Shown in pieces: positions 3,601 through 51,608 of a stretch of 64,000 nucleotides of DNA. Origin of the DNA: Craspedostauros australis. Its lineage: Eukaryota; Bacillariophyta; Bacillariophyceae; Mastogloiales; Achnanthaceae. A model generated the notes under the pieces. It was not told the DNA's origin and did not search any database. It worked only from the letters and a program-made list of their open reading frames with translations. Numbering within the stretch: position 1 is the first letter of the stretch; each line of letters begins with the position of its first letter. The translations under genes and the position numbers were made by a program. The stretch covers positions 744,001 to 808,000 of the forward strand of contig JAMXDE010000019.1 of assembly GCA_026770025.1 (NCBI GenBank), written 5' to 3'.

Positions 3601-3609
3601 CTTGCCAAC

Positions 3610-16076: not shown

Positions 16077-17192
16077 TTACGATATCGTTACCACCGCGTC
16101 TGCCGTCGCATTGATCATCGCCGTCGTAGTGTTCGTGCTGTTGGATCGATGATTACGCCGCGGCGCCATGCCGAACGTCTTCCAATTGATGTGCCACATC
16201 TTGGTGTAGGCGATCATGAACTGCTCGCCGGCCTCGATATCGCGCGTCGCGAACAACGCCGTATCGTTGGCTTCGCCCGACTCATTGTACGGCAGATCGG
16301 CGACGTTGACGAAGCGGATGCCGGCCGCCTGATTCAGCAACGACGACGCGTCGAGTTCGGCATGCACAATGAGCGTCTTGGGATCGCGGTACGTGGCGTA
16401 AGTCCACACGTCGAACATGTAACACACGAATTGCGGCGGCAGATTGAGCAGGAAGACGCGGAAATCTTCGGGCGTTTCGAACAGGGCGACGTAATCGTAG
16501 GTCCAGATCAACGTGCCTTTGGCGATGAATTCTTTCGCGAAGAGCCCGCGATTCATGGTGGGATGGATGTCGATGTAGTACGGCACCTTGGCGCCTTCGC
16601 CTTCGATGTCGTCGGGCAGCGATGATCGATTCTGGCCCACGGCGAATTCGTAGGCCTTGCGCATCGTGATCCAGTCGTCGCGCGTCGGGATGGCCCGATT
16701 TTGGAAGCCGGGATCGTCCTCGCAGTCGAAGACGGCCATGAGCTCCTGGATCGTGCCGTGATGCCGATCGATCGTGATGTTGACCCAGTCGCCGTTCTCG
16801 TCTTCCGATTCGGCCTGCTTGGATTTGTTGTGACTCAGATCATCCGCAGCGGCGCTGTCGGGTGGCGGCAACGCCATGCCGCGCAGTTTGTTGTTGTCGG
16901 CGTTGTCGGCATTGTGGCTATCGTGCAGGGATGGTCGAGGATGCGCGACGGACGGCTGTTTGAACAGCGACTGCGACTCGTTGAGCTGGTGCTGGTTCTG
17001 GAACGTGATGACGACGATGATGAGCATGGCCGCGACGGGGATGATCGCTCTGGGGATGCCGCATATCGTTGCCGACGCCTTGCGTGCCTGCGATCTGCTG
17101 GGATGGCGTTGCTGCTGTCCATGCCGCTGCTGTCCATACTGCTTCTGTCGGAGTGGCGACTTCTGCGCCGAGTGGCGGTTGTGGACTGCCAT
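16077..17192 (-). CDS. signal-anchored SET-domain protein 1
   Basis: 371 residues, predicted type II membrane protein: basic Gln-rich N-terminus, one hydrophobic helix at about 47-64 (AIIPVAAMLIIVVITFQN), a polar linker, a conserved pre-SET module (GTIQELMAVFDCEDDP), then a SET-like domain from about 195 to 345. SET features visible are NRGLFAKEFIAKGTLIW for the first strand pair, AELDASSLLNQAAGIRFVN where the usual NHxxxPN motif lies, and ATRDIEAGEQFMIAYTKMW for the GExLxxDY motif. SET domains transfer methyl groups from S-adenosylmethionine to lysine. The topology puts this one in the ER/Golgi lumen or outside the cell. Next to SET protein 2 in the same orientation. Enzyme activity is not shown: the pseudo-knot motif is atypical in all four paralogues here. 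Confidence 0.82.
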   Translation of the reverse strand: MAVHNRHSAQKSPLRQKQYGQQRHGQQQRHPSRSQARKASATICGIPRAIIPVAAMLIIVVITFQNQHQLNESQSLFKQPSVAHPRPSLHDSHNADNADNNKLRGMALPPPDSAAADDLSHNKSKQAESEDENGDWVNITIDRHHGTIQELMAVFDCEDDPGFQNRAIPTRDDWITMRKAYEFAVGQNRSSLPDDIEGEGAKVPYYIDIHPTMNRGLFAKEFIAKGTLIWTYDYVALFETPEDFRVFLLNLPPQFVCYMFDVWTYATYRDPKTLIVHAELDASSLLNQAAGIRFVNVADLPYNESGEANDTALFATRDIEAGEQFMIAYTKMWHINWKTFGMAPRRNHRSNSTNTTTAMINATADAVVTIS

Positions 17193-17729
17193 TCTCTTGT
17201 CTCTCGCGTTGCGCTGAATGGTGCTGAGTTCAGCTGAGTCTAGCTGAGTTCAGTTGTGCCTATCGTATTGTGTTAGTATTGGTATTGGTATTGGTATTGT
17301 GCTGTGTCTCTCTCCAGTGGAACTCACTCTCTTGGACTTGGTTTTGAATGGTCACTGTTGCGCTGAGCTGTGCTGTGTTGTGTCATGTTGGGGTCATCTC
17401 CGATTTGCTCAAGTGGCACACGGCCTTTCTTGTGACTTTGTCGCATTGAGACGTGTTTGGCGCTCGTGCCAAATTCACCGTTTTGGCACGATTTTGTCCA
17501 TCTTTCAGCAAAATTCGGAAATTCAATCCCTCCAAATTTTGTTCACTTGGGAAATGTCCGTCACGACGAGAGCGACGAGAAACCCATGGCCGCTCCTCCA
17601 TCTTCTCTCGCCATGGTGAGACCTCACCCCACTCCGCTGACATCACCAATCTACCATACGATCTATGCGAAACGCCACCATGCCATCACACACAGTGCGC
17701 CTCTATACTTACAGTACTCTATCTCTAGC
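17193..17729. other. intergenic between SET proteins 1 and 2
   Basis: No supported gene. Contains a short (GGTATT)n run at about 17277-17298, in the likely 5' flank of SET protein 1, and AT-richer DNA near the 3' end of SET protein 2. Confidence 0.6.
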
Positions 17730-18683
17730 CTACAACCCCAACAACGCCCAACCTTGATCGAAATCGAAATCATTGTAATTCATCAGAATTTGCTCGCCGG
17801 CGTCGATCGCGCGCATCGAATAGACGCCGCGACCGCCCTCCACATTGCGTTCCACCGTATTGACCTCGCTGCGCCGACTGCCTTCATTCAGCAACGATCC
17901 GGCATCGAGATCGCTGCAGACGATGGCGCCACTGCCACTGCCATCATGAATGGCATACGACCAAATCATCAGATCGCATGCGATATCGGGTGGCACCTGC
18001 ATCAAGAATTTACGGAACTGCCAACCTTGCGTGAAGTGGGCCGTGTAGTCTTCCGTCCAGATCAACGTGTTGTTGGGAATTGAACGCGTGGCGTAGATAC
18101 CGCGGCCCATGCGCGGATGGTAGTCGACGTAGTACGGCACGTGGAAGCCGGTGCCCGTGAGGTTCGCGGGGATTGTGGAGTTCGTCGTGCCGACGATGTC
18201 GACGTAGGTTTGCCGCAGCTGCATCCATGTGGCGTCGCTCGTGACGGGGCGCTTTGGAGCCGTTTTGCCGAGGTATTGGTCGCATTCGAGGGCTTGCAGG
18301 AATAAAGCTATCGTGCCGTTGTGGATCGTCAACGTCACGTATTCATATCCCTCGTCTTCATTCTTGTTGTTGTTGTTGGCAGCGGCAGCATCGGGCACGT
18401 TCTGATTTTGATTCTGCTTTGCATTCGCCGTCCTTTGCGCTGGCTTTCCTTTGCTCTCCACATCACGCAGCTTGGCTGCACCAATGTCCACATCCACCAT
18501 AAGCAGGGACCCTTCAAAGATGCCCATGAAATGCGCCGCCACAAAGATGAAGCTCGCCATCAGTACCAGCATCACGAGTCGCACATACTGCGCCATTGCG
18601 CCGCGTGCCGACCGCCGTCGTGGTCGTGGCATGCGTTTCTGCGTGTGTCTTGACTTCGATTTCATGGCGTTGCGTCGGAACAT
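17730..18683 (-). CDS. signal-anchored SET-domain protein 2
   Basis: 317 residues if begun at ATG 18683, chosen because it gives a short basic N-terminus (MFRRNAMKSKSR) before the single hydrophobic helix (LVMLVLMASFIFVAAHFMGI, about 32-51). The frame is open upstream but that part is Ser/Gln repeat-like and lacks features. The pre-SET module is GTIALFLQALECDQYL. The SET domain shows MGRGIYATRSIPNNTLIWTE, DLDAGSLLNEGSRRSEVN and AIDAGEQILMNYNDFDFD. The last motif is close to the canonical GEELxxNY. Closest in wording to SET proteins 3 and 4. The likely role is a lumen-facing protein methyltransferase (family knowledge plus topology inference). Confidence 0.82.
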   Translation of the reverse strand: MFRRNAMKSKSRHTQKRMPRPRRRSARGAMAQYVRLVMLVLMASFIFVAAHFMGIFEGSLLMVDVDIGAAKLRDVESKGKPAQRTANAKQNQNQNVPDAAAANNNNKNEDEGYEYVTLTIHNGTIALFLQALECDQYLGKTAPKRPVTSDATWMQLRQTYVDIVGTTNSTIPANLTGTGFHVPYYVDYHPRMGRGIYATRSIPNNTLIWTEDYTAHFTQGWQFRKFLMQVPPDIACDLMIWSYAIHDGSGSGAIVCSDLDAGSLLNEGSRRSEVNTVERNVEGGRGVYSMRAIDAGEQILMNYNDFDFDQGWALLGL

Positions 18684-19212: not shown

Positions 19213-21735
19213 TTAGAGTTCTTCGCAGGCAGACGGGGATGGTCCAGGGCAGTCTGTGGCGTCGTCGATTACGTACGTTGCTGTGTCTGACGTACACAAT
19301 TTTGCTTTGGCGCAACTGGTGCAGTTGGCGTCTGTCGTGCACGCTCCTGATCTGATGATGATGTCATTGGTTGCACTGTCACTATCGCCAAGATCTTGGC
19401 ACGTGGCGGCGCCCGAGCACGCACCTTCCTCGACGATCACGCTTCCTGCAACTTTGGTCGATGAATAGGAATGCAATTGACTACAAGCTTTCGTCGCTTT
19501 GCACGCATTCTTTCTGATGGAGACACTTGCCACGACCGGTGTCGTGGTTGTAGACCCTTGGTCGTCGCGGTATGCAAGGGAACCGCATGCATCTAATGCA
19601 TCGCATGCTCCGTCTGCCACTCGTACATTGCCAAAGGTGTTACATCCAAGATCTTCGCAACTCTCCTGTCCAACGCAAGCTCTTGGTCCGATCACCCTGA
19701 ATCCGACTTTTGCACCAACAGCTGGCTGACCCGGATAGAAACTGCCCAAAAAAGTGCAGGCAAGCCTTCCCTTGCAACTGTCAAGTATGATTGCGTTGGG
19801 GCGTGTGTATTTACATGCAGAAGTCCCGGCACATGATCCTGACGTCACCGTCATGACACCGCCATCAACAGATTCAATTGTGCAAGCATTAGAACCGGTG
19901 CAGCATTCCACACCGCATGCCTTCGTCACCACAGTCGCGCTGCCAGTGAAGAGCTTCTTGTCCTCGTTCGCGAACGCCAACAATGCGGTGGTCACACTTT
20001 CTTCGTTCTTGATCTTATCAAAGCGTTCCTGTGCCACGTCCAACGCCACCGGCTGTGGAGGGTCTGCATCATTGCATCCAAAGATACTTTTGATCATCTT
20101 GCGCTTCCCCTCATCCAGAGAATCAACCAAGAAGACAAAATCTGCGCATGTGCCTGTTGCACCATCGCACAATACGTCACCAGGGATGGAATTGAACGTT
20201 TTTGTGTCGTCACCCGGTGTTGAGAGACATCCAACAGTCCAGGATGCCGGGGGGAGAGTAGGAGTTGATGTGGGAGCTGATGTGGGAGGAGCTGTGGGGG
20301 AAGGAGTTGGAAAGAAGGTCGGACAGTCTGTGGGCAGGGTGTCCTTGCCAATACAGTACTCCTCCACCTTGTCACCAGTGGGATTCATGTTACTGTCACT
20401 GCCTCCCTTTGGACAGGCCCCATCGATATCGCTGATGATGTAAACCTCGTCGGAGTTGCACTCCGTCTTCGTCATGCATCCTCTGCATCCTTCGATACTG
20501 CCACATCCACCAGGAGGGACGACGAGGTCGGTTCTCATCCTGTCATGGAAGCCCATCTTCTCGCATGAGCCATCGGCGGCACAGCCACCAGCACCAATGG
20601 TCAAGCTGCCTGCATACTTGCCAGCAGTACCATGGTTGACAGTGGAATGGGCATCCTTGCAGGCATTGCTGCCAATGCACGCATTCGCCCCGATGTGGAT
20701 GTGGCTTCGGAAGCGAAAGGATGGTGCTGATTGCTCCACACGACGGCCAGCTGCATTGCATGCCTCTGACCCAATGCATGCACCAGTCTGGATGGTGACA
20801 TCACCATGAGAGCGGCGTCCCACTCCCTCACAAGATTGAGAGGTGGTGCATGCCATCTCACCAACGAAGGTGACTCCTGTGATGAAGGGATTGGTCTCAT
20901 TCTCATTCATCAACTCGCATGCACTCGCGCCAGTGCAGGAGGAATCGAGGATGAGGGGATTGGGGCCCATATCCTTGCATGCGCTGTCACCGGTGCATGC
21001 CGTGATCGCAACGGTCATGAATGGAGGGGAGTCGGAGGCGGAACCCGTGGCTGAAGTGCATCCCGAGGATCCTTGACAGCATGGGGTGGCGACACGAGGC
21101 GATTGCATCGCCGCGATGGCCGCGCATGCTGCGTTCATGGCATCTGGTCGTTCGGTGACAAGGATCGCGTTGGTGGCAGCAACCAGGGCCAATTGGCCAG
21201 CAAGGATGTCGCTGGATGAGTACTTTTGGAAGAGCTTGCGTGCGGCTCCTTCACTGAGGTCTCCAGCGCACGCGAAGAAGTTCTGAAGCTGCTCGGATTC
21301 CTTGACGGCGGTGATGGCCTCGCGGCAGGATGGCTTGTTCGCATCGCAAATGATGGTCTTGGCGCTTCTCTCTTCTGTTGTGAGGGTGGTGATGCCATCG
21401 GGCTTGCAAATGACCTCGATGGTGGAATCGAAGACCACTGGGGCAGCTGATGGTTTGGATGTTGGCAGGCGAGTGGGCTGGGAGGTCGGCAAGGCGGTTA
21501 GCACGGTCGTTTCTGGATCAGCCGGGTTTTCAGTGGGTGGCACTTGGTTGTTCTTGTTGCCCTTGTTGGTGTTCGTGTCACCGTCGGCGTCCTTGAGGAT
21601 GCGGATCTTGTTCATCGCTGTGTGGAGTTCCTCGGTTGGATCCACGGGAGTCCTGCTGCCGCGGAGCACGGCGTGGACCGTTGCCGTCTTGGCGAGAGCG
21701 AGAAATGCGACGAAAGCTGTCTTGGTGTAGATCAT
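19213..21735 (-). CDS. gene B: secreted Cys-rich two-half protein
   Basis: 840 residues and intact. Signal peptide at 1-22 (TAFVAFLALAKTATVHAVLR), a conserved pro-like segment with NKIRILKDADGD, and a Pro/Thr linker at about 65-100. Half 1: helical module at about 103-225 (CREAITAVKESEQLQNFFAC; DLSEGAARKLFQKYSSSD), a CC pair, then a Cys ladder at about 235-460 with repeated xC-TG-x-AC-x-MG rungs (ITACTGDSACKDMG; SSCTGASACELM; GACIGSEACNAAG). A short Pro/Thr/Ala linker follows at about 470-500, then half 2 with a second helical module and Cys ladder ending SPSACEEL. The rungs of about 20-35 residues look like a parallel beta-helix held by disulphides (inference). No enzyme motif is seen. Most similar to gene C, with which it shares both flanks; the shortest linker of the four paralogues. 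Confidence 0.85.
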   Translation of the reverse strand: MIYTKTAFVAFLALAKTATVHAVLRGSRTPVDPTEELHTAMNKIRILKDADGDTNTNKGNKNNQVPPTENPADPETTVLTALPTSQPTRLPTSKPSAAPVVFDSTIEVICKPDGITTLTTEERSAKTIICDANKPSCREAITAVKESEQLQNFFACAGDLSEGAARKLFQKYSSSDILAGQLALVAATNAILVTERPDAMNAACAAIAAMQSPRVATPCCQGSSGCTSATGSASDSPPFMTVAITACTGDSACKDMGPNPLILDSSCTGASACELMNENETNPFITGVTFVGEMACTTSQSCEGVGRRSHGDVTIQTGACIGSEACNAAGRRVEQSAPSFRFRSHIHIGANACIGSNACKDAHSTVNHGTAGKYAGSLTIGAGGCAADGSCEKMGFHDRMRTDLVVPPGGCGSIEGCRGCMTKTECNSDEVYIISDIDGACPKGGSDSNMNPTGDKVEEYCIGKDTLPTDCPTFFPTPSPTAPPTSAPTSTPTLPPASWTVGCLSTPGDDTKTFNSIPGDVLCDGATGTCADFVFLVDSLDEGKRKMIKSIFGCNDADPPQPVALDVAQERFDKIKNEESVTTALLAFANEDKKLFTGSATVVTKACGVECCTGSNACTIESVDGGVMTVTSGSCAGTSACKYTRPNAIILDSCKGRLACTFLGSFYPGQPAVGAKVGFRVIGPRACVGQESCEDLGCNTFGNVRVADGACDALDACGSLAYRDDQGSTTTTPVVASVSIRKNACKATKACSQLHSYSSTKVAGSVIVEEGACSGAATCQDLGDSDSATNDIIIRSGACTTDANCTSCAKAKLCTSDTATYVIDDATDCPGPSPSACEEL

Positions 21736-22930: not shown

Positions 22931-23960
22931 TCATGCCGATCATTACGTCACCATGGTCGACGATGACGCCCGCATCCACAAGAAGACGGTCCACGAATGG
23001 GCCAAGCCCTTCAGTGGTTGACCGCAGAATGTTCCAGCGGAGAATGGTGAGGCATTCGTTGATGGTGATAGCTGCTTCAGTATGAAGCACTGAAGCACGT
23101 AAGCAATCGTACAGCGCACCTACAGCCAACAATAGCTCATGCATGAGGAACAGCAGGACTTGCTCCGTTTGCGCAGATTAGCGGCAATCATGGAATTGAC
23201 GTCCTGGTACTTCATCAACGTCTGGCCCAACACATCTGGCTCAACCCAGGCATCCTCTTCGCACGCGTTGTCATGCAATGCACTCAATGCTGGTATTGCT
23301 GGTCAGTGCGCTGTTTTGGGAGCTCGGTGAACGCGATGACCATGAGAGTATCCTTTTGCGTGCAGCAGTGCTGTTCTACTGTGTGGATTTCTTCATCTTC
23401 ATGAGGGTCGCCATGCTGCCCTTCGTGGTCATCGTGCACAGCATCTTCGACAAGGAGCTGCTCAATGACTACTGCCATCCCATTGTCTACCAAATGATGC
23501 AAGGTTTTGATTCGATCTCAGGCACTGGGTTGCTGGCATTCCTCGCCTCGTTCATTATCATGGCAATGCTCAAGTTCAACTAACTCTTCTGGTACCTTCT
23601 CAACATGACGCTCGTGGCAGGGTGGTTTGGTGTCTCCATGCTGTTCCAAGGCTTCATGATCATGCCATCCGACTTCCCAGACCGCCTGCAATGGACACAC
23701 TACGTTGCCTTCCACGTGCACATCTCCACTTGTGGCGTTCCTTCACAAAGACCAAGTTTGATGGCCGCACCTCCAACAGCAAGCTGTTTCCCACGGGTGA
23801 GTCGCTGCTGCGTTTGTACGAAATGGAACATGGGAATCATGGCAATGACATGTGATGCTGGCTGGATACGCAATGCTCCCGCATCTGTGTTCCTTGCTGT
23901 GTTGCACATCCAGCATACCTCCTTCTATGGACAACTGGAAGCATCCAATTGGGAATAGAG
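22931..23960 (+). pseudogene. ABCG-type transporter fragment, broken (copy 1)
   Basis: Remnant of the membrane half of an ABCG (white/PDR-type half) transporter. Recognisable pieces in changing frames are LLVSALFWELGERDDHESIL, FDKELLNDYCHPIVYQMMQG, LFQGFMIMPSDFPDRLQWTH and a C-terminal SLLCCTSSIPPSMDNWKHP-like end. In functional relatives this region forms the six membrane helices that export lipids or small molecules. Here several frame changes prevent a continuous product, and the ATPase half is absent. A sister copy lies at 33690-34949, so the decay at least partly predates the duplication. Confidence 0.75.
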
Positions 23961-24230
23961 CGGTGGTGTGGTGGACTGCGGAAGATACGACTACATATGA
24001 GGATGCCTCGAACATGCGAAATTGGACTATGCGACACACAGTGTCTGTAGACATACCTCCAACGCGATATTATCTGCCCGTAGAGCATGCAATGCGTTAC
24101 ATAACGCACGTCCCAAGATATACAATAACTTCACAGTGCATTCCACATTTTTCATTGGATGCACCAACATCTGCCCCGGCTTCGAAGAGTTGATCTGAAG
24201 CAGTGCTAAGAGGGACACATGTCCACCTTC

Positions 24231-25965
24231 TTATTGTATACTCCGGTGTGGTGTCTGGAATGACTGCAAGTTGTCCGCAAACTTCTCAATGATTTGCACA
24301 TGCTGACTGAGCCCGTTTCCAAGAATTGCATTGCTGGACGACAATGAATCACTGATTCTCAGCACCGGCGCGTTGCCTATCCTGGAATCGGTTGTTGCGG
24401 TCAACGGAACAACGACATTGTTGTAGATGTACGGTGCATACGAGAACGTGCTTGCAGTGGGATAGGAGAAACCGGAATGGGCGCGGAAGTACTGCAGTGC
24501 TTGGATCAGATTGTTCTCCTCGAACACCGTCTTGTGCTGAAAGGCCGCGATGGGCAATTCCTGGATGGGCTTGCCGGTTGCCACGCCGAGCTGATAGAAT
24601 TGATCGAAGACGTCGAACTGATCTGGTGTCAATGAAACCACAGCGCGCATGGCACATGGTGGAGAAGTAGGGCCATTCCACCTTCATGCGATTGTAAATG
24701 TCGTGCCAACAGTGCTTGGAGGTCTCCCATCCTCAGGCCAGTTTGCAGTACGTGTCACAATCGAAGCCGTCGGCCTCGCCGCATGCTTCTTCGGTGCAGA
24801 GCGGGTGGCTCGATTGCATGACGCTCTTCATGTACGTCTCCCAGGTCTTGTAGATCCCTGTCACCTGCTTGGTGAATCGGACATCATTGAGCTTCAGCAT
24901 GCGCAATTTGAATGCATCACCGTCTGGTGTGATCGGATACAGCACAGTGTTCTGCATCGTTGTTTCTGTTGCAATCCGCGGCAAGAAGTTGAGGTCCTTC
25001 AGCATTGGATAGTCCGTATTGTCTATGTACTGCCACTTGTATGGTGTCGTGGCGGTGCTGAACGTGAAGTCTGGCGACCATTCAGTGACGTCGATGGACC
25101 GTTGCGAATCCGCGGTGTACAGGATGCGCCCCAGAAAGGAACGGCCGCTGGCGCCCACCTTCGTGCCAGTCCGCTGAAGCGTGTCCATGCGATGACCGGA
25201 GGCATCAAAGACGATGAGGTTCGGCACATCCTGGAGCAGATGCCAGCATGTTCGAATATCGTCAAAGAGGAACTTGACGCTGAGATCACGGTTGGAGAGC
25301 AGCAGGAGCGTTTCGATGACCAAGAGCGGCAAATTGACGAGGCGCTCCTTCTTGGCAGCATCCTCGCTGGCAGCATTGTTGGTGCTCTGATTCTCAGCAT
25401 GCGCAGTCGTATTCGTGGTCGCTTTCCGCATCACGACCTCGTCGAGGTAGTTGACGACGCGCGGATCTCCCTGCGTACAAGTGCTGAAGCCGATCTCGGT
25501 GATCCAATCTCTGGAATAGGATTCATTGCGACCCAGACGCTCCACCCGTTTTTCGAACATGAGGATGCGGATCGATTGATTCTCCTTGACGTGGTTGAGG
25601 ACGTTGGCCAGATGCAGCCCCACCGGTCCCGCACCAATGATCATGATGTTGAGCGTATCCAGTGTGAAGTGATGCTGGATGACTTGCTGCGCCAAATACT
25701 TGGGCGTCGGCAGTGCCCGCTGCGTTGCTTCGTTCGCATCAGGCGAGCCGTCGCAAACATACTGCGAATCCAACCGCACCGTGCACCGAGGTGCTCTGAC
25801 CAGCTGCTGTATCGTGCCCCAGCACACAGTCGAGAACATCTCACCTTCCACCACATTGATGGATCGCGAACATCGTTGCATGATGGTCTCGAAGTAAGTA
25901 CTCGTCGATGCAGCTGTCCCAATCCCACACGACTCTACGCTGCAGCTGTTCTTCTCGTTATTCAC
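24231..25965 (-). pseudogene. FAD-dependent oxidoreductase-like gene, broken (copy 1)
   Basis: The N-terminal 410 residues read cleanly from 25965 and include a dinucleotide-binding motif (IMIIGAGPVGLHLANVLNHV) followed by an acidic strand end (FEKRVERLGRNES), as in flavin monooxygenases and related oxidoreductases. The remainder does not match a family I can name. A stop replaces a tryptophan codon kept in copy 2 (the frame ends ...CDTYCKLA). Further on, a 7-bp tandem duplication near 24645-24659 shifts the frame; the C-terminal part (FEENNLIQALQYFRAHSGFS) reads in the new frame to 24231. Upstream it lacks about 0.5 kb present in copy 2. A partner copy at 35222-37503 shares the 7-bp duplication. 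Confidence 0.75.
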
Positions 25966-31450: not shown

Positions 31451-31452
31451 GC

Positions 31453-34949: not shown

Positions 34950-35221
34950 AGCGGTGGTGTGGTGGACTGCGGAAGATACGACTACATATGAGGATGCCTC
35001 GAACATGCGAAATTGGACTATGCGACACACAGTGTCTGTAGACATACCTCCAACGCGATATTATCTGCCCGTAGAGCATGCAATGCGTTACATAACGCAC
35101 GTCCCAAGATATACAATAACTTCACAGTGCATTCCACATTTTTCATTGGATGCACCAACATCTGCCCCGGCTTCGAAGAGTTGATCTGAAGCAGTGCTAA
35201 TAGGGACACATGTCCACCTTC

Positions 35222-37503: not shown

Positions 37504-38273
37504 GATGACGATTGGAATAGTTCTGTTAATAGTCCAATTGCAGTTGCGGATGCTTCTGTGGATGCTTCACTCTCGTGCGATGCATGGTCTGCTCGCACGT
37601 TGCCAATGCCAAGCAGGGGTGGATGTTCGGAATGATGATGATCACTCTGTGTGCCTTTGATTCTTCGTTGGTGGGCGTTGGCAGCTTTTTCTGTGCTTCT
37701 TCCCCTTCACGAATCGTATTAATCGAAAGTACTGGTGGGACATCGTCTCCAAACAACTCGCGTTTTCTTGCGACCATTTCCGACCATGGCTTCGCTGATT
37801 TCGTGGCGCAACCATGATGCACCAGAAACCAACCACAAAGCGAATACCGGAAGCATTGCAACCGATGCAGACACAAATCAATCAAATCAATCTCGCCAAC
37901 TCCAGTCTAGACATCGCATAGAGTGGAGAGTAGGTAAGTGATCTTGAGTAACAAACGCAGAGCGGGAAGGGGGATTTGAGAGCTGTTGCGTTGGTGATAG
38001 CGACCTTCTCATGCTTTCGTCCTATTTGGATAATTTGCTTGTCGAACGAAGGTGTGGGTTGACGCATTCCATTCTTCTCAACGCTCACACATCCTCAGTC
38101 GCAACCGTTCATGACCCACCACCGCCGTCCATGCACATGTACATGTACATCCGTGGTTTCCATGCTTGTATTCCTTGGTGAAGCGTGAGGAGATACTGTA
38201 TGGCGTATTCGTTTGTCCACATCACGGAGAAGCACCAAGGACCAGGAAACTTTTCACATTCATCTATGCCACC
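37504..38273. other. intergenic with a possible LTR scrap
   Basis: Contains the right edge of duplication unit 2 (to about 37725). Bases 37695-37742 resemble part of the copia LTRs at 10430 and 43865 (cttcttccccttcacgaatc; actgg). The remainder is the 5' flank of the ankyrin gene. Confidence 0.4.
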
Positions 38274-40073: not shown

Positions 40074-40213
40074 ACAGCGTATTACTTACTCAATCCATCT
40101 GCATTTGCGAGTCAGCCTGGCCATACCACACTGATACAGCAAGAATAGAGTTCTACACTATCAATATATTGCAGACGGATATTGGTTTCTTGTGTTACTA
40201 TGGCATGCAATGG

Positions 40214-43174
40214 TCAAAGGCCTTCGCAGGCGAATGTGTTTGGTCCAGGACAGTCATCACCCGCGTTGTCGATGACGTACGTGAGCGTGAAGTCATTGCC
40301 GCACATCCTTCCCGGCAAACAGTCGGCACAACTCATACCAGTCGCATCGCAGATCCCCTCTCTCACGATGAGGTCATTTACGGCGAAGTCATTCTCCGCA
40401 ATCTTGCTGCATGCACTATCTCCCTTGTATGCGTCCTTTTCGATCGTCAAACTTCCAGAAGTCTTGCCGAGCACCTGTGCATGGACATTCTCACATGCCG
40501 TATTCCCCTGGCATGCATTCTCTCCGATGAATACATTGGCGGTGACTTGTGGTGCAGCTAGTTGCAGCATTCGGATTGCAATGCTTCTGCATGCACTGTC
40601 AGCATTGCAGGCCCCCGTTTCAAATCTGATATTGCCGTAGATGTACCCTCCTGAACCTCTGCAACTATTGGCAGCCGTGCATGCTCCTGGTCCAATCACC
40701 CTGAAGCCAATGGTGAAATCCACTGGCGGAGTTTGAACAGATCCCAACCCATTGCAGGCGTTGTTCTCTGTGCAACTTTCGAGGATGATGCTGTCAGGGG
40801 TGAGGAGCTTGCAAGCCGAATTTCCGAGACAGGATCCGTCACTCACGGTCATCACGCCAGACGACGTGTCGGTGGAGCAACCGTTCGTCCCTGTGCAGCA
40901 GTCGGTGTCACATTGGGTTGTCACAACATCAGGCGCACCCGTAAAGAGTTTCTTCGTTCCATCCACTGCTGCCAACAGCGCTGCAGTGACGCTTGCATCG
41001 TTTTTCATCTTATCGAACCGTGCCTGGGCCACCGCCAACGTCACGGGCTGCGGAGTCGCTTCGTCGTTGCATCCAAAGACGCTCTTGATCATCCTCTCCT
41101 TCTCATTATCAAGGTCATCAACCATGGAGACGAAGTCTGCGCATATGCCTGTCGCACCATCACATGAGACGTCACCAACAACATCATTGAAGGTCGATAG
41201 GCCATTTCCAGGTGTTTCGAGGCAACCCACGTTGAAGGTTGCTGGAGGACCAGTTGGCTGAGGTGTCTCTGTGGGTGTCGAGCTCGGCAGGTCCGACGGT
41301 AGGCTTGATGGGAGGGCGGACGGCATATCCGACGGCAAAGAACTTGCCGAAGGAACCATGGATGGCATATCCGACGGCCATGAGCTCGGCACAGCTGACG
41401 GTGCACCAGATGGTGGAGTAGATGGAGTTTGCGACGGTCTCTCTGACGGGGACAAAATCGGGGCACGCGACGGAATATCGGAGGGATGTTGGGACGGAGT
41501 ATCGGACGGTGTCTGAGAAGGCGATGAGCTGGGGATGCCCGACGGTATCTCGGATGGAAGGCTGGACGGAAGATCTGACGGAGATTGCGAGGGAAGGTGG
41601 GATGGCCCGTCAGATGGCGATGAGCTTGGCGTATCGGATGCCAAGATGGTTGGGTTGCTGGTTGGGGCGGCCGTAAGCGGTGTTGGGAAGGGAGTCGGAA
41701 ACAAGGTCGGGCAGTCTGTGGGTAAGGTGCCCTTACCAACACAAAACTTATCCACTTTATCCCCTGTTGGGTTGTGGTTGCTATCGCTACCTCCCTTTGG
41801 ACAGGCCCCATCAACATCGCTGATGATGTAGACTTCGTCAGCGCTGCACTCCGTCTTCGTCGTGCATCCCCTGCAGCTGTCAACGCTGCCACATCCACCA
41901 GGAGGGACAATGATGTCCGTTCTCATCCTATCGTTGAAGCCCATCTTTTCGCATGAGCCATTAGCGGTGCATCCACCAGCACCGATGCTCAGGCTTCCTG
42001 CATACTTGCCAGCAGTACCATGATCCACAGTCGAGTGGGCATCCTTGCAGGAATTGCTGCCGACGCAAGCATTCGAGCCAATGTCGATGTGACTGCGGAA
42101 GCGGAAAGATGCCCCTGACTGCTTGACGCGGCGTCCGGCTGCGTTGCATGAGTTTGATCCGATGCATGCGCCTTGTTGGATGGTCACGTCGCCATGAGAT
42201 CTATGCCCGACTCCCTCGCAAGATTGAGGGGTGGTGCATGCCATCTCGCCAACGAAGGTGACTCCCGTGATGGACGGGTTGATCTCGTTCTCATTCATGG
42301 ATTCGCATGCACTCGCGCCAGTGCAGGAGGAATCGAGAATGAGCGGGTTGGGGCCCATGTCCTTGCAGGCGCTACCGCCGGTACATGCAGTGACCGCGAT
42401 GGTCATGAAGGGAGGAGAAGGAGAGGCGGAAACAGTGGTCGAGGTGCATCCAGACGCTCCTTGGCAGCAAGCGGTGTCGACGGAAGGTGATTGCGTCGTG
42501 GCGATGACCATGCATGCTGCCTTCATTGCATCCGGTCTCTCGGTGACGAGAGTCATACCAACATCAGCCACCAACGTGAGTTGTTCAGCGAGCATGTCAT
42601 CGGCAGCGTATTTGTTGAAGAGCTTGCGCGCCGCTCCTTCACCGAGGTTCCCTGCACATGCAAAGAAGTTCTGCAGCGCCGCAGATTCCTTGACGGCGGT
42701 GATGGCCTCGCGACAGGATGGCTTGGCGGCGTTGCAGATGATGGTCTTGGCATTGGCTTCCTCTGGTGTGAGGGTGGTGGTACCGTCCGGTTTGCAGACG
42801 ACAGAGATGGAGGAATCGAAGCCCGACGGGGGCGCTGCCGGTTTGGACGTTGGGAGGAGAGTGGGCTGTGAGGTCGGCGTCATTGAGGACATCTCAGATC
42901 GCAAGGCGGTCGGCGGCCCAGTGGGTAATGCGGTCGGCACGATTGTTTCTGGTCCAGCCGGATTTTCAGTAGGTGGCGTGCGGTTGCTCTTGTTATCCTT
43001 GCTGGTTTTCGTGGCACCGCCGGCGTCCTTGAGGATGCGGGTCTTCTCCATTATCATGTGGAGTTCGTTAGTTGGATCCACGAGATTTGTACTGCCACGC
43101 AGCGCAGCATGGGCCGTTATCGTGTTGGCGAGAACAAGAAAGGCCGAGAAGGCCGCTTTGCCGTTGATCATCAT
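40214..43174 (-). CDS. gene D: secreted Cys-rich two-half protein, longest PS linker
   Basis: 986 residues from ATG 43174 (second ATG at 43171), chosen because it opens the family signal peptide (KAAFSAFLVLANTITAHAAL); the upstream open frame has no family match. Same plan as genes A-C: helical module (CREAITAVKESAALQNFFAC), CC pair (TACCQGASGC), Cys ladder (TACTGGSACKDMG; GACIGSNSCNAAG), linker, then the second module and ladder ending NTFACEGL. The central linker (about 41250-41690 on the plus strand) is the longest of the four, a PSxxPS array of roughly 150 residues (PSDMPSALPSSLPSDLPSS). More diverged from B and C than they are from each other, and its flanks do not match theirs, so it split earlier. 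It converges on the ankyrin-BTB gene with only 140 bp between stop codons. Confidence 0.85.
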   Translation of the reverse strand: MMINGKAAFSAFLVLANTITAHAALRGSTNLVDPTNELHMIMEKTRILKDAGGATKTSKDNKSNRTPPTENPAGPETIVPTALPTGPPTALRSEMSSMTPTSQPTLLPTSKPAAPPSGFDSSISVVCKPDGTTTLTPEEANAKTIICNAAKPSCREAITAVKESAALQNFFACAGNLGEGAARKLFNKYAADDMLAEQLTLVADVGMTLVTERPDAMKAACMVIATTQSPSVDTACCQGASGCTSTTVSASPSPPFMTIAVTACTGGSACKDMGPNPLILDSSCTGASACESMNENEINPSITGVTFVGEMACTTPQSCEGVGHRSHGDVTIQQGACIGSNSCNAAGRRVKQSGASFRFRSHIDIGSNACVGSNSCKDAHSTVDHGTAGKYAGSLSIGAGGCTANGSCEKMGFNDRMRTDIIVPPGGCGSVDSCRGCTTKTECSADEVYIISDVDGACPKGGSDSNHNPTGDKVDKFCVGKGTLPTDCPTLFPTPFPTPLTAAPTSNPTILASDTPSSSPSDGPSHLPSQSPSDLPSSLPSEIPSGIPSSSPSQTPSDTPSQHPSDIPSRAPILSPSERPSQTPSTPPSGAPSAVPSSWPSDMPSMVPSASSLPSDMPSALPSSLPSDLPSSTPTETPQPTGPPATFNVGCLETPGNGLSTFNDVVGDVSCDGATGICADFVSMVDDLDNEKERMIKSVFGCNDEATPQPVTLAVAQARFDKMKNDASVTAALLAAVDGTKKLFTGAPDVVTTQCDTDCCTGTNGCSTDTSSGVMTVSDGSCLGNSACKLLTPDSIILESCTENNACNGLGSVQTPPVDFTIGFRVIGPGACTAANSCRGSGGYIYGNIRFETGACNADSACRSIAIRMLQLAAPQVTANVFIGENACQGNTACENVHAQVLGKTSGSLTIEKDAYKGDSACSKIAENDFAVNDLIVREGICDATGMSCADCLPGRMCGNDFTLTYVIDNAGDDCPGPNTFACEGL

Positions 43175-43864
43175 TTCCGCTGCTGTTGTCGCGATACGTG
43201 ATACTGTGGTGCGTGGGGCACTATTGTGTTTGGGTACGAGTGAAGCGCAGGCGTATAATTCACACCATACATGCAACGAACGTTGTATTGCAGTGCAGTT
43301 GCCCACGCCAATTCCGTACCGTTGAGAAATCAGGGGCGTTGCCATGTGCGTCCGACGTATTTGCGTGCAAGGCGGATTTGCGTGGAATTGTCGCAGTTGG
43401 AGATGTGCGCGGCGCACCAGGTCATAGCGGTTCGTTCGAACGATGTTTGCGGCAGCGATTACATTCCGTGTCCAATGGACACACAACACGGCCGCCATCC
43501 ACGATGCCAATCATTCCGCATCGTGGTGCATCCATTCGGACAGACTTAAATTTAAGCACGTTGGCACCATCCGATAAGTTATGCACATGAATCGAGAAGT
43601 AACAGTGTGAGTCGATTGGGATCGGGAGAGCACGAACACCAGTGCGCACCAAGGTACGAGTGCGGAGTAATACCCATCTGGTGTCGATGTGACAAGCCAG
43701 TATGCGAGCAGAACGATGTGGACCGGGCGGAGGCGAAGCTGCGCATCTCTTCAATGATGAAACGTGGAAGGGTGAATTGGGATGCAAGCGTCCCATCTCC
43801 ACGGCACCCATGTACGTTGTCGTTTCAGCAAGGCATTTCATCAAGGCTGCTACGTCATCTGTCG
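43175..43864. other. intergenic, 5' flank of gene D
   Basis: No supported gene. The minus-strand frame that runs into gene D from 43510 is open but shows no family similarity. Confidence 0.5.
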
Positions 43865-44029: not shown

Positions 44030-44087
44030 CTTTTCACCAGATGCAGTACGTTCTGGCTGATCTGTCGTCGGGACAAGAAGAATCCCC

Positions 44088-46796
44088 TCATGGAAGCGTT
44101 GAATGATCCGAACGCCATGCATTGTAGTGCTGTTGATGTTGCTGGTACGGCATTGGTGGCGTTGAAACGTTGCCGTGTTGTGGTGGCTGTTGTTCTTGCC
44201 GTGGCGGCTGCTGTTGCCATGTTTGTTGTTCTCCCCCAACACAGTAACGTTGCTGCCACAGTCGGTATTCCCAACACAGTTGTTGCTGTCGCATCGCTTG
44301 CAGTTCTTGATGGTGCTGGGCAGCCCGCTGCGTCTGTTGCAGCAGTAGTTGACGCTGCTTTGATGGTTGTTGCTGTTTTTCATGTTGCATTGCTTGGCGT
44401 TGCTTTGATCCATGTTTTTGTTGAACAGTGTTGAGGTGTCGTATGATGCGCCGTTTCCTTGCTTGGGCTTGCTGTTGCGACACTTTCTGTTGTGTTGCTT
44501 TCTGTTGAGTTGCTTTCTGTGACAGTTGCTTGGCATGCGGTTGCGGTGGTTTGGCACGCTGTTGCGGAGGTTGTGATCGTCGCACTTGCGCTGGAGGAGC
44601 TTGCACGAGTGGCGGTATCCGACCTTGCACCCGTGGGAGTAGCGGAATTTGCACAATTGGCAGTGTGCAAGCTTGCACGATTGGCAGTCTGCGAGCTTGC
44701 ACGCGAGGGAGTGACCGGCCATGCACGAGTGACACTGGCTGAGCTTGCGCTGGCTGAGCTTGCACTGACGGAGTTTCCGCTTGCGGAATGTGCATCGATT
44801 GGTCTTGCGATGATTGCCCTTGCAAGGAGGTATGCTGTTCCGTTTGTATGTCATGTTGTCGTGATTCCTTGCGCGCGGTCTGGCCATTCGCTAGTTGGGG
44901 CTGGCCTTGTGGCGGCTGTTTCTGCGGGATCTGAGCTTTCAGTGGCTGAGCATGCAATGACCGAGAATGCAATGATCGAGAGAGCACTTGTTGAGTTTGC
45001 AATGGCTGCACTTGTGGTGGTTTCGCTTGCGCTGATCTCATGTGCAATAGCTTACCTTGCACTTGTTTCGCTGGCACTTGTTTCGCTGGCACTTGAGTGG
45101 CTTGCGACGGCTCAGCTTGTGATGGTTCGGCTTGCTGTTGCAAAGTTCGATCTTGCGTTGGCTTTGGTGGCTGTTGCACAGCCAGCACTACTGGCTTCGC
45201 GGGTTGTGCTTCGGCTTGCGGTGAATTTGATTGCTGCAGTTGGGTTTGCTGTGGTGGATCTTCCACTTGCGTCGTTCGCAAAGGCTGATTCTGTGGTTGC
45301 GGAACTTCCACTGGCTCGCGCTGCCCTTGCGGTGGTTGATGCTGCGTTGGTTGGTCTTGATGTGGCGCGACTTGCTGTGGCTGATCTCCCACTGGTTGTG
45401 CTTGCGCCGGTTGCTTTCGTGGCGTTATTGTTTGCTGTTGCGGAGTTTCCGCTGGCTGGACTTCGATTGACTGGACTTCCTTTGTCAGCGTGTGCTGTAG
45501 TTGATCTGCTGTTGGCTCCAGTTGCTTGCGCGTCGCTTGCTCGTGCATTGGCTGGGCCTGATGAGACGCAGGTTGCGCTGACTGAACTTCCACTGATTGA
45601 ACTTCCACTCGCTCGTGTTGGTCTTGCGGCAGTTGATCTTGCATGGATGCAGATCGTGGTGGTTGACGTTGCAATGCTTGATGTGGCTTCGCTTTATCTT
45701 GCGATGGTTGAGTCTGGGCTTCCAACGGTTGGCTATGATTTGATGAATCGTCCGTGGGTTGATCCTTCTGCGGTGGTGGATCGTGCGATGATGTATCTTG
45801 CAGCGCTTGGTCTTGCAATGCTTGCTCCTCCACGGCCTCTGTTGGTTGCGGTGATGCCTCCTGCGCCGATCGTTTCCGTGATTGCTGCTGCGCTTCTAAT
45901 TTGATGCATGGCGTCTCCTGCTCGAGCTGCGCCACCTGGGCCTCAAGTTCACATTTCTCCTTCTCCAAGGCAAGCAACCTGGTCTGCGTCTTCAGCAGCT
46001 TGACTCTCTTCGTGCGCACCTTGATGACCTTCGCGATCCACGTGAGCTGATTCTGAGTTTGCACGATGTCTGCGTCGATGTTTTCCTCCGAAGGATGCGC
46101 AGCAGACTTGCTGTCATTGTTCGGACATGCATCGTCGTACGAACCATCTTCGTTGTCGGCGCCATCATCGACGAGGAAGGAGGCTTCGTCATCATCAAAG
46201 TCTTCCTCGAGCATGCTGCTGTGGCGACTATCGCTTTCGCTCGCATAGACTTCCTCGCTTTCGCTACCGCTTTCATCGGCACTGCCATTCTCACTGTCGC
46301 TGTTGATGGAACTTGCGCTGGAACTGCCACTGTCATTGGCAATCACACTATTGCTTTCGTCGTCACCCTGGTTGTCACCCCCACTGACACTCTCACTAGC
46401 ACTAGCACTAGCACTAGCACAGGCGCTCTCACTAGCACTCTCACTGACACTCTCGCTAGCACTCTCACTGGCGCTCTCACTAGCACTCCCACTAGCACTA
46501 GCACTCTCACTATCAACCCCCCTTCCACCCCTCCCACCACCCCTGCGACGCTGCGCAAGAAAGTGTTGGAGATCTCGCTGCGTGCGATCCAACGGGATGG
46601 AGGTGTTGGTGGTCTGAAAGATCTCCACTTGAGCCCTGGCAATGCTGATGTTCAAGGCCTGCGCCACGCAGTCGGCACGTTGCCGATTGAACTGGCGAAT
46701 ACGCATCATGAAGCTCTCGTGGATGGTGGCCGCATCGCCTTCGTCGTGTGCCAATCTCGCCATCCTGGCCTCGAGGGGGTGCCATGGGCGCGGCAT
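44088..46796 (-). CDS. very Gln-rich protein with acidic Ser-Glu repeats, unknown function
   Basis: 902 residues from ATG 46796 (MPRPWHPLEARMARLAHDEG); the frame is open upstream but that part lacks features. Order: a folded-looking N-terminus (FMMRIRQFNRQRADCVAQAL), an Arg/Gly patch, a (SES/SAS)n acidic run encoded at 46380-46510, and an acidic Asp/Glu/Ser stretch. A coiled coil of about 60 residues follows (RTKRVKLLKTQTRLLALEKE), then more than 500 residues of Gln/Pro/Ala short-period repeats (LPIVQACTLPIVQIPLLPRV; KATQQKATQQKVSQQ) with a Gln-rich end. Low-complexity Gln proteins like this often act in transcription or condensates, but nothing here identifies a role. The antisense strand is also open over long stretches because of the repeats. 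A solo LTR begins 59 bp past the stop. Confidence 0.65.
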   Translation of the reverse strand: MPRPWHPLEARMARLAHDEGDAATIHESFMMRIRQFNRQRADCVAQALNISIARAQVEIFQTTNTSIPLDRTQRDLQHFLAQRRRGGGRGGRGVDSESASASGSASESASESASESVSESASESACASASASASESVSGGDNQGDDESNSVIANDSGSSSASSINSDSENGSADESGSESEEVYASESDSRHSSMLEEDFDDDEASFLVDDGADNEDGSYDDACPNNDSKSAAHPSEENIDADIVQTQNQLTWIAKVIKVRTKRVKLLKTQTRLLALEKEKCELEAQVAQLEQETPCIKLEAQQQSRKRSAQEASPQPTEAVEEQALQDQALQDTSSHDPPPQKDQPTDDSSNHSQPLEAQTQPSQDKAKPHQALQRQPPRSASMQDQLPQDQHERVEVQSVEVQSAQPASHQAQPMHEQATRKQLEPTADQLQHTLTKEVQSIEVQPAETPQQQTITPRKQPAQAQPVGDQPQQVAPHQDQPTQHQPPQGQREPVEVPQPQNQPLRTTQVEDPPQQTQLQQSNSPQAEAQPAKPVVLAVQQPPKPTQDRTLQQQAEPSQAEPSQATQVPAKQVPAKQVQGKLLHMRSAQAKPPQVQPLQTQQVLSRSLHSRSLHAQPLKAQIPQKQPPQGQPQLANGQTARKESRQHDIQTEQHTSLQGQSSQDQSMHIPQAETPSVQAQPAQAQPVSLVHGRSLPRVQARRLPIVQACTLPIVQIPLLPRVQGRIPPLVQAPPAQVRRSQPPQQRAKPPQPHAKQLSQKATQQKATQQKVSQQQAQARKRRIIRHLNTVQQKHGSKQRQAMQHEKQQQPSKQRQLLLQQTQRAAQHHQELQAMRQQQLCWEYRLWQQRYCVGGEQQTWQQQPPRQEQQPPQHGNVSTPPMPYQQHQQHYNAWRSDHSTLP

Positions 46797-47922
46797 TGTT
46801 GTTGTTGCGTAGTGGTACTGTGTCGATTGTACTATACGTAATGTAGTATGCGTGGAGTCGCAGTTTATGACAATCCAATGCCATCGCCAAGAATGATGTG
46901 GAGATTGTGGATGCAAGTCCACGTTTTTGTTTTGCTTTGCGTTCAGCACAACAACAACGATGGGCGACAAGAATTGTTCGCGCCATCGTGGCGATTTCGA
47001 CTACTGCGACTGCAATGAGAACGCAAATTCAGCGATCGTGTTGTGCGGGGACACCCGGCAAGTGCATCAAATACTTCAGTTTACGACTAGTACGACCCCA
47101 AAGTGCTTTTTGTCATTTGTTGTGTTTCTTCGTTGTTTGTGAGATGTTGACAAAGCAATGTCGCAGCGACGTCTTCGTTTGATTCATTGATATTACCACT
47201 TTATCAATCGGTGTTACTCGGACAAATCTAGTCATTGCTTCCGTTTGGTTGAAGTGTCATCGAGTCCCGTCGAACCTGCTTCCTTTTGCATTTAATGCAC
47301 TTGGAGTGCATTTAATGCATTTGGGGTTCAAAAAATGCACTTGAAGTGCATTAAATGCATTTGAAGTGCATTAAATGCAATTGGAGTGCATTAAATGCAT
47401 TTGGAGTGCATTAAATGCACTTTCAGTTGTGCATCAGATTGATTCGTGACTTAAACAACTACAGTCACAACGGCGGTCATTGGACACTAATAGACGATCT
47501 CGTTAAATATGATACTTAACGACACGACATGTACTGGTCATTTTCAGCGAATGCAACGACACAGATTGTGTAGGCAAGACTAATTCGATTAAACAGTCTC
47601 GATTCATCTCTCTGGTCAAACGAGTCAAACAACGCACGTTTCAATGGACTTGCCGGGTGTCCCGGTGCATCAATTCGCGCATTCGTGTTGGCGCAATCTC
47701 CAAATTGTGCATTCTCCACATCTTGGAAGGAACGAGTGGTCGTATGCATCAAGCAGAGTGCAAATCATAGAGTGGAGCAGCAAAGAGTAGTACTCTACTC
47801 TGCATTCATTGGAGTATGTAGAATGTAGTGTGATGTAATGCTTCGATAAGAATGAATTGAAGAATATTTCGCCACCACGATACCATACCATGATGTAATA
47901 CCACGATGCTCTGTGCCTCTGA
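46797..47922. other. intergenic with 20-bp satellite-like array
   Basis: No supported gene. The only structured part is the tandem array at 47288-47431. Confidence 0.55.
47288..47431. repeat. 20-bp tandem repeat with palindromic core, about 6.5 units
   Basis: Six full units start at 47297, 47317, 47337, 47357, 47377 and 47397, with partial units on both sides. A typical unit is gcatttggagtgcattaaat. Where units join, tgcattaaatgca forms an inverted repeat, so every period carries one palindrome-like core. Differences between units are mostly point changes, one unit (47317) being most diverged. Confidence 0.9.
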
Positions 47923-49005
47923 CTACACCCACGGATTCTTGAAACCGATATCGTCCCAACACGTCAAGCAATCGAAATCACCGTAATTCATGATGAGCTG
48001 CTCCCCCTTTTGAATATCTTTCGTCGCGTACAGTTCCAGAGCCACATCATCGCTATCGCTATCATCGCTGTCCGCTTTACTGTCGATCGACAGGAACTTG
48101 CGTTCCCGCACATTGACGGCGGCGTTGCGCCCGGCCGTGTTGAGCAACGAATTCTCATCCAAATCGCAGTTGCCGACGGAAGGATTCTTCGTGGCGTAGG
48201 CCCAGACGAGGACATCGCAGGCCAATTGCGGTGGGATGTTGAGCAGAAAATCACGATACTGATCGCCCGTCCTGAAGACGGCCGTGTAACGATCGTCGGC
48301 GACCTTGGTGCCCTTTTTGATGAATTGGCGCGCAAAGACACCGCGACCCATCTTGGGTGCGATCTCGATGGCGACGTCGACGACGAAACCGGAACCCGTG
48401 AGATCGGATGTCGTGCGGCTGTTGCGGATCGACGACGTGGCATTGGGGTGGCGCGCTATCATTTCCTCGTACTTTTGGCGCAAGAGGAGGAAGGTCTCGG
48501 GCGTCGGGATGTGGACCTTGTCGGCGTGTTTGCAGTCGAGGACTTGCCAGAAGTCGTTGTAACTGCCCTTTTGGACGGTGACCGTGAGGACGTTCTCGTC
48601 GTCCTCGTCTGAGTCGTTGGATGCATGTTTGTGGTGGTGGTGATGCTGATGCGACGCCTTCTTGTGCTTGGCCTTTCCGGGTGAGAACTTGCGCGTCGTG
48701 ACCGCGGGCGATGCGGCGGACGTGACCACCTTCTTGGGGTCCTCACGTCGTCTCAGTTTCTGTTCGTTGGCCTTCATCTTGGCTTCCGCCAATGACGAAC
48801 CACCCTGCAGCAAGGCCGGTGGCGCGACGAAGTCGGAAACGAGCTGCTGCAGACGCAGCGCCGGCAGGATGAGGGCCAACAAGGCCAGCACCGGCCATTG
48901 CCAGGGTCTGCGTCTGCTGGATCGGGCAGCTGCGCGTGGCTCTGGTGTGAACACGGGCTCGGGATCGGACCGTGAATGTCTCGCGGTCTGTCGATGTCGC
49001 ACCAT
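47923..49005 (-). CDS. signal-anchored SET-domain protein 3
   Basis: 360 residues, type II topology: an Arg-rich N-terminus, one hydrophobic helix at about 36-53 (WPVLALLALILPALRLQQ), and a basic/His-rich stem including a (H)5 run. The pre-SET module is GSYNDFWQVLDCKHA, and the SET domain spans about 195-350. Motifs are MGRGVFARQFIKKGTKVADD, DLDENSLLNTAGRNAAVNVR and TKDIQKGEQLIMNYGDFDCL. A short Asp/Ser acidic insert lies before the last motif. The catalytic part would face the ER/Golgi lumen. Of the four paralogues this has the most canonical GExLxxNY ending. Its neighbour is SET protein 4, in the same orientation, with a foldback element between them. Confidence 0.84.
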   Translation of the reverse strand: MVRHRQTARHSRSDPEPVFTPEPRAAARSSRRRPWQWPVLALLALILPALRLQQLVSDFVAPPALLQGGSSLAEAKMKANEQKLRRREDPKKVVTSAASPAVTTRKFSPGKAKHKKASHQHHHHHKHASNDSDEDDENVLTVTVQKGSYNDFWQVLDCKHADKVHIPTPETFLLLRQKYEEMIARHPNATSSIRNSRTTSDLTGSGFVVDVAIEIAPKMGRGVFARQFIKKGTKVADDRYTAVFRTGDQYRDFLLNIPPQLACDVLVWAYATKNPSVGNCDLDENSLLNTAGRNAAVNVRERKFLSIDSKADSDDSDSDDVALELYATKDIQKGEQLIMNYGDFDCLTCWDDIGFKNPWV

Positions 49006-50436: not shown

Positions 50437-50538
50437 AATAGACCGTGCCAACACATGGTACACGTACGCCCTATTGCCGTAGCAATATCAACAATAGCAA
50501 CAACAACAAGCATACAATACAGTACACGGTGTCTGCAT

Positions 50539-51608
50539 TTACATGCCTATTAACCTCCATGCATGATCGAAATCGAACTCCGCGTAATTCGTCAGTAGCT
50601 GCTCGCCTGCTTTGATATCGCGTTTGGCATACGTCGCGTGCTTCCCCAACTCTTCCATCCGGGTCTTCGTCAGCTTCCCATTCGTCGTCGCCGTCACATC
50701 CGATACCGTCGCATTCGATTGCGGCAGCTCCACAAGATTGACGTCGTCCACGCTCGAGCCGGTGTTGAGGAAGGAACCCATATCGAGATCGCAGTAGACC
50801 ACGCCGCCATGCGGACTGCTGCCTTCGGCTTTCATGCCGTAGCACCATTGCAACAAATCGCAGGCGAGATCCTGCGGCACGCTCAACAGGAACGTGCGCA
50901 TCTGCCACGCTTCGGTGAATTCGGCAGAATATTGCTCATCCCAAATCTTCGTGCCCTTTGCAATATCCTGCGCCGCGAAGACGCCTCTTCCCATGCGGGG
51001 ATGGTAGCCAAGGTAGACCGGCACGGCGAATCCGTCCTCGAGCAGGTGCATGCTGGCCCATGGTCCCACGATGCTGGTGTAGAGTCCGCGCAGGTAGACC
51101 CACATGGCGTCGTCCCATAGCGGGCGTGCCGGGGCCGACGGGTATCGCGACAAGTAACATTCGAAGTTGATCCAGAAGTCATCGACCGTGCCGAGGTCCA
51201 CGCTCATGAACTCCTTGCGCAGTACTTTCATCCATCCTTCTTTGGCGGTCTTTTCGTTGGAGGTCGTCTCGTTTGTTTGCGTGGCATTGTCGTCTTTCGG
51301 TGGTTGTGGTGAATCTGCTTCATCGGCCGTGACTGTTTTGGGCGGATCGTCGGATGTGACTGTTTTGGCAGCGTTGATTGGGCATGAAGGTATCAGCCGA
51401 ACTCCATGCGTGTGAGCAATGATTGTATTGTATTGCATTGATTCATCATCCTGCACACAATACTTCTGTCATCAATGACTGACAGCAACAGCCAGAGCCA
51501 TTGCCACACACAGAACGACGTACCTTGTCCATCGGCTGCCGCTGCCGACGTATCAATCAGCAGGCACAACGCTGCGACGACCAGCATCATCCATGACAAT
51601 TCTCTCAT
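50539..51608 (-). CDS. secreted SET-domain protein 4, probable single intron
   Basis: The SET-bearing exon reads from about 51359 to 50539: pre-SET module GTVDDFWINFECYLSR, then MGRGVFAAQDIAKGTKIWDE, DLDMGSFLNTGSSVDDVN and RDIKAGEQLLTNYAEFDFDH. Its own upstream codons do not form a good N-terminus. Starting at ATG 51608 another frame gives a clear signal peptide (MMLVVAALCLLIDTSAAAAD), which ends at a consensus 5' splice site (caag|gtacgt, intron from 51523). In-phase acceptors lie at 51360 (aaaacag) and 51333. Joining at the first gives an intron of 164 bp. The gene model is inference from splice signals and phase. The cleavable signal peptide, unlike the anchors of SET 1-3, predicts a soluble luminal or secreted protein. 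Confidence 0.75.

Follow-up and report, generated by a model that had tools for sequence, protein, structure and literature searches.

Four SET-domain genes of the diatom Craspedostauros australis as candidate lumen-facing methyltransferases of the secretory pathway

To our knowledge, no enzyme has been assigned to the methylation of silaffin lysines and of long-chain polyamines inside the compartment where diatoms form their silica. A cluster of four SET-domain genes in the diatom Craspedostauros australis (GenBank assembly GCA_026770025.1, contig JAMXDE010000019.1, positions 744,001 to 808,000; this stretch of 64,000 nucleotides is called the window here, and positions are counted within it) raises the question of whether SET enzymes could do this work from inside the secretory pathway. 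SET enzymes are mostly known from the nucleus, the cytosol and the plastid, and a lumenal branch, if true, poses the question of how S-adenosylmethionine (SAM) reaches the lumen. The explanation that we favour, with a probability of about 0.45, is that the four genes encode paralogous secretory-pathway SET methyltransferases acting on lysines of proteins that are secreted, among which those of the cell wall, for example silaffin-like proteins, are the most plausible targets. Such a lumenal family would supply concrete candidate genes for silaffin and polyamine methylation.

The diatom SET proteins studied by Nemoto and colleagues are said to be targeted to the endoplasmic reticulum (ER). Proposed SET enzymes of diatom wall formation have been in print since 2020, as the diatom-specific SET-domain methyltransferases of Nemoto et al. 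2020 (Mar Biotechnol 22:551-563), which are cited for wall formation by PMC11151724 and PMC11554505, the former crediting that study with seven diatom-specific methyltransferase genes. A first-pass annotation of the window, made by a model from the letters alone, had noted that diatom-specific SET proteins were proposed as candidates for silaffin lysine methylation, and both descriptions agree that such SET proteins have been proposed. As described there, the published family has a SET domain, secretory targeting and a suggested action on cell-wall proteins and polyamines, and judged by these descriptions the four genes are probably members of it; secretory targeting was indicated in all four by hydropathy and charge. 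The likeness is one of description, whereas the genomic cluster and the motif [LF]LN-x7-VN are described here from the four genes themselves. Our results add candidates to a proposed family, together with a testable common motif, to a concept that was itself published in 2020.

Four paralogous SET genes and their predicted fold

The four genes were found where the first-pass annotation had placed them, all on the minus strand (Table 1). Genes 1-3 are each one open frame, and the frame of gene 2 continues open to an upstream ATG at 18971 (413 amino acids, aa). The span given for gene 4 is not open throughout and requires an intron within it; removal of the predicted intron leaves an open frame, and this splice choice is the most plausible one, not a proven one. 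Its exact splice sites are unproven because many other GT-AG pairs also keep the frame open. The SET domain claimed for the four genes was recovered in each by the Pfam profile search, PF00856 scoring 34, 24.8, 32.4 and 31.5 bits for genes 1-4 against a curated cut-off of 22.4 bits, which gene 2 cleared by a narrow margin.

Judged by their sequences, the four genes are old paralogues. Identity over the common region is 32-47%, and each protein found the other three genes in tblastn searches of the window (12 of 12 comparisons, E 6e-24 to 5e-52). There is no fifth SET copy in the window, because the next best tblastn match had an E value of 0.51. Differences were highest at third codon positions in all six pairs, with first-position differences close behind, which gives mild support for coding constraint. 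The description of the genes as two pairs holds for position and fails for similarity, since the closest match, genes 2 and 4 (0.47), joins members of different pairs. Genes 2 and 4 are most alike and identities run from 0.32 to 0.47, therefore neither neighbouring pair is the product of a recent tandem duplication. A block duplication of a SET pair was considered and rejected; no listed repeat family of at least 150 nucleotides (nt) overlaps a SET gene, and the identities disfavour it.

As to whether the SAM and lysine sites are complete, the alignment showed the putative catalytic Tyr, the GEQ and the Asn of NH kept in all four proteins, whereas NHxxxPN is altered in all four and GxG is intact in three. 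The NHxxxPN motif is typical of SET domains, not universal. Its replacement by [LF]LN-x7-VN is real and common to these four genes; the first-pass annotation had rightly seen a common change and written it LLN-x6-8-[VF]N, but gene 4 reads FLN, the spacing is exactly 7 and VN is found throughout. Its other motifs are recognisable in looser form: gene 1 has NRG in place of GRG and GEQF in place of GEQL, gene 2 has GRGIYA for GRGxFA and GEQI for GEQL, and the pre-SET module common to the four is better written G-[TS]-x7-[FL]-[DE]-C. Methyltransferase activity is predicted for the four proteins as likely only, because NHxxxPN is altered. The phenylalanine/tyrosine-switch rule links a position near the catalytic Tyr to the degree of methylation. 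The residue two before this Tyr is I, M, M and T in genes 1-4 and never Tyr, which by this rule would permit di- or trimethylation.

Structure prediction, which had been proposed as a check, gave a SET fold for the C-terminal part of gene 2 that matches solved SET methyltransferases. AlphaFold, run on its C-terminal 213 aa with 14 SET sequences (2 phage and 12 bacterial) added to the alignment, returned a predicted local distance difference test score (pLDDT) of 79.9 and a predicted template modelling score of 0.78. The model had 264 matches in the PDB at E <= 0.001, and all of the best 50 of 264 were SET proteins; the first was S. pombe Set7 (5h6z_B, E 1.9e-6, template modelling (TM) score 0.72 by target length), and vSET (3kma_A) matched with E 2.4e-5 and a TM score of 0.76 by target length. 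Against a viral structure library, 28 matches at E <= 0.001 were obtained, of which those with a name came from phages and giant viruses and were SET-type or lysine methyltransferases, the rest being unnamed viral open reading frames (ORFs). The SET core of the predicted model is sound. The modelled fold is that of histone-type SET enzymes (KMT5A/SETD8, MLL, G9a, S. pombe Set7 and vSET), to which sequence similarity is distant: the four-gene profile reached a Legionella SET protein at E 6e-5 and KMT5A at E 0.015, and a profile mixed with bacterial sequences matched many of them (best 60 of 126 at E <= 0.01), but identity was 11-20% among the best 50 of 264 structural matches. Histone-type SET enzymes are nuclear, with the canonical NHxxxPN.

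N-termini, cysteines and predicted topology

The signal anchor or signal peptide claimed for each protein was supported in all four by hydropathy and charge counts, used here rather than a trained predictor. Genes 1-3 have a common architecture, in which a basic N-terminus is followed by a single strong hydrophobic stretch (window mean hydropathy 2.37, 2.33 and 1.83), a long polar linker, a pre-SET region ending in [DE]C and then the SET domain. The 15 residues before the hydrophobic stretch hold 3, 5 and 5 basic residues and no acidic ones, and the 15 residues after it 1, 0 and 0 basic ones. By the positive-inside rule, the basic flank stays on the cytosolic side. Because basic residues precede the hydrophobic stretch and few follow it, genes 1-3 would be type II proteins whose SET domain faces the lumen. 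Gene 4 has a signal-peptide-like start (top hydropathy window 2.12), and the claimed secretory placement is supported by hydrophobic N-termini in all four together with the basic N-side flank of genes 1-3.

Two cysteines are invariant in the four proteins; the first belongs to the pre-SET extension, the second to the SET-I region. The SET-I column has no Cys in any of the 14 bacterial and phage sequences, and the pre-SET column lies in a region that those proteins lack. The invariant pair would fit a lumenal disulfide. The charge pattern and the common cysteines agree on the lumenal side for the catalytic domain, while an excess of glycosylation sequons is confined to gene 1, which has 9 after its anchor versus 2.5 in shuffles (a fraction of 0.0005 of shuffles as high).

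Candidate substrates and alternative readings

In the favoured explanation, three type II membrane proteins (genes 1-3) and one protein with an apparently cleavable signal peptide would act in the lumen of the ER, the Golgi or the silica vesicle, where imported SAM would be the methyl donor and the acceptors would be lysine side chains on secreted proteins, those of the cell wall, such as silaffin-like ones, being the most plausible. We infer the lumenal location, the disulfide, SAM import, activity and substrate; lumen-facing SET methyltransferases are likely from the sequences, and for a silica or silaffin role the four genes are candidates. Silaffin lysines carry dimethyl-lysine and trimethyl-hydroxylysine (PMC3820600), and among the candidate substrates we rank the lysines of cell-wall proteins ahead of polyamines. 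The open-licence literature searched showed no biochemical assay of a SET enzyme located in the lumen. A bolder version is doubtful, though worth stating: a lumen-adapted, disulfide-braced SET branch with a remodelled SAM-binding loop would di- and trimethylate lysines (or lysine-borne polyamine chains) of silica-forming proteins, and the four-gene cluster would be the missing enzyme of silaffin maturation.

Several results weigh against the favoured explanation. The sequons of genes 2, 3 and 4 show no clear excess (4 vs 2.25, 2 vs 1.85 and 3 vs 1.3 in shuffles, with shuffle fractions of 0.18, 0.56 and 0.14). AlphaFold on the four sequences alone gave a mean pLDDT of 43.9, a low confidence that was not used for the fold, and the confidence in the modelled SET core is partly borrowed from the added bacterial and phage sequences. 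Gene 2 alone, searched by sequence against the PDB, gave nothing better than E 0.59, and the TM scores of its model by query length were at most 0.43 among the best 50 of 264 matches, which are low because about 90 of the 213 residues precede the SET core. The canonical NHxxxPN is found in none of the four proteins, the His being replaced by Q, E, T and T in genes 1-4, the Pro by V, and the spacing lengthened by three residues; the first G of GxG is absent from gene 1. The same active-site changes are what speaks for degenerate or binding-only SET proteins, in which methyl transfer would be lost through the change in the NH motif. We consider such proteins improbable; the other active-site motifs including the Tyr are kept in all four at just 32-47% overall identity, which suggests constraint, and SETD6 and Rubisco large-subunit methyltransferase (LSMT) are active SET enzymes that lack the full NHxxxPN. 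Plastid enzymes like the latter would find support in the facts that diatom plastid proteins begin with a signal peptide and that SET enzymes occur in plastids, the hydrophobic start then serving as the leading element of a bipartite plastid-targeting signal. An ASAFAP-type motif marks diatom plastid targeting, but direct reading, made with no targeting predictor, found no clear one after the hydrophobic stretch (SDFVAP of gene 3 is faintly similar), and the long basic region before this stretch in genes 1-3, with few basic residues after it, is unlike a transit peptide, so that a plastid location appears very improbable.

Pelagophytes, a non-silicifying group, supply the last point on the opposing side. 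Arctic pelagophyte SET-domain (PF00856) genes were salinity-responsive, and at least one carried a signal peptide (PMC9133084); the first-pass annotation had named the presence of the family in non-silicifying relatives with an unrelated role as a refutation, and this protein, which may or may not belong to the family, partly touches that point. Together with the 12 salinity-inhibited SET genes among the differentially expressed genes of Skeletonema (PMC11554505), these genes favour lumenal methyltransferases of general secreted or stress-related glycoproteins with no silica link, and the Cys-rich, PT-repeat, secreted-looking proteins encoded near the SET genes hold 3-5% lysine and are not lysine-rich and silaffin-like. 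The family is, however, called diatom-specific in the title of Nemoto et al. 2020 as cited in PMC11151724 and PMC11554505, and we regard a general role as rather unlikely. A serious alternative, unlikely as it is on balance, is that long-chain polyamines, free or silaffin-attached, are N-methylated in the lumen instead of protein lysine. Some diatom polyamine-synthesis enzymes carry a fused histone N-methyltransferase domain, to which the N-methylation of the polyamines is ascribed (PMC12029483 and PMC3820600, describing Michael 2011), the authors of PMC11554505 suggest that SET proteins may methylate putrescine, and BurB, a SET-domain methionine S-methyltransferase, gives a precedent for small-molecule use by a SET enzyme (PMC12542666), although it is bacterial, has another substrate and is likened here by description, not by sequence. 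Against the polyamine alternative, none of the four proteins showed a domain of polyamine synthesis in a Pfam scan with E up to 1.

Relatives and genomic neighbourhood

A search of IMG/VR with alignment A1 matched 96 stretches and confirmed two loci, both short SET proteins that, by our own reading, adjoin phage-type structural genes; IMG/VR searches with alignment A2 and with the proteins of genes 2 and 3 gave none (A2 and A4 hold the C-terminal part only of each window protein). In GTDB genomes, alignment A1 matched 51 stretches, none confirmed, and alignment A3, with phage sequences mixed in, matched 96 stretches and gave 12 bacterial loci. No anchored relative was found in these viral contigs or bacterial and archaeal genomes, collections that are uninformative on diatom restriction. 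One phage SET protein had two distant relatives among annotated phages, PHROGs gave two weak matches of unknown function, and NCBIfam matches were all far below cut-off. The 14 small bacterial and phage SET proteins (L001-L014) have the same order of SET core motifs as the window proteins, with HGxG in 12 of 14; six of the 14 end, like genes 2-4, in Y-x-x-FD. They differ in that their frames as cut (L003, L009 and L012 started inside longer frames, L012 was also trimmed at its end, and L002 and L006 started one codon in) include neither a pre-SET extension nor an anchor, the two cysteines have no counterpart in them, and NH is retained in all 12 bacterial proteins fetched, the two phage ones reading NW.

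Table 1. Features of the window
Feature	Position	Strand	Remarks
SET gene 1 (P0001)	16077..17192	-	371 aa; SET aa 215-329; basic N-terminus; top hydrophobic stretch aa 46-64; polar linker; pre-SET
SET gene 2 (P0003)	17730..18683	-	317 aa; hydrophobic stretch aa 37-55; SET aa 193-304
SET gene 3 (P0004)	47923..49005	-	360 aa; hydrophobic stretch aa 39-57; SET aa 220-342
SET gene 4	50539..51608	-	exons 51608-51524 and 51401-50539; 315 aa; signal-peptide-like start; SET aa 156-291 in unspliced frame P0005
Predicted GT-AG intron, SET gene 4	51402..51523	-	122 nt; splice sites unproven
Cys-rich secreted-looking paralogue	10429-12945	+	PT/PS-rich stretches
Cys-rich secreted-looking paralogue	19213-21735	-	PT/PS-rich stretches; adjoins SET gene 2
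Cys-rich secreted-looking paralogue	28345-31206	-	PT/PS-rich stretches
Cys-rich secreted-looking paralogue	40214-43180	-	PT/PS-rich stretches
Copia-like retroelement pieces	1-10432		identified by reading
Vacuolar-sorting-receptor-like gene	13531-14997	-	near SET gene 1
Direct duplication	22931-26040 / 33933-36929		about 11 kb apart
Ankyrin-repeat gene	38166-40073	+	BTB domain
Gln/Pro-rich ORF	44091-47000	-	long, low-complexity
Tandem duplication	57378-60016 / 60889-63546		about 3.5 kb apart
ORF in first tandem copy	58072-59511

The four Cys-rich paralogues contain repeated C-x-G-x-x-[AS]-C-like units, with a sub-threshold DUF7640 match in two of the four and R-I-L near the N-terminus in three of the four. 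The vacuolar-sorting-receptor-like protein has VSR_TRX and PA domains above cut-off. A 171-bp direct repeat at 4712 and 10429, 99% identical, may represent terminal repeats. Retroelements of copia type and secreted proteins with PT repeats, both as read here, would be in keeping with the genome of a diatom or one of its relatives. Both copies of the direct duplication hold an ORF with near-identical translation, and the copy searched gave a sub-threshold NAD-binding match; for the ORF of the tandem duplication, searched in one copy, Pfam gave nothing at E <= 0.01. Rfam and ARAGORN gave no matches on the window. SET gene 3 and a Cys-rich gene flank the long Gln/Pro-rich ORF. The C-terminus of the ankyrin-repeat protein is hydrophobic on reading, and ankyrin proteins have been linked to diatom pore patterns (PMC11151724).

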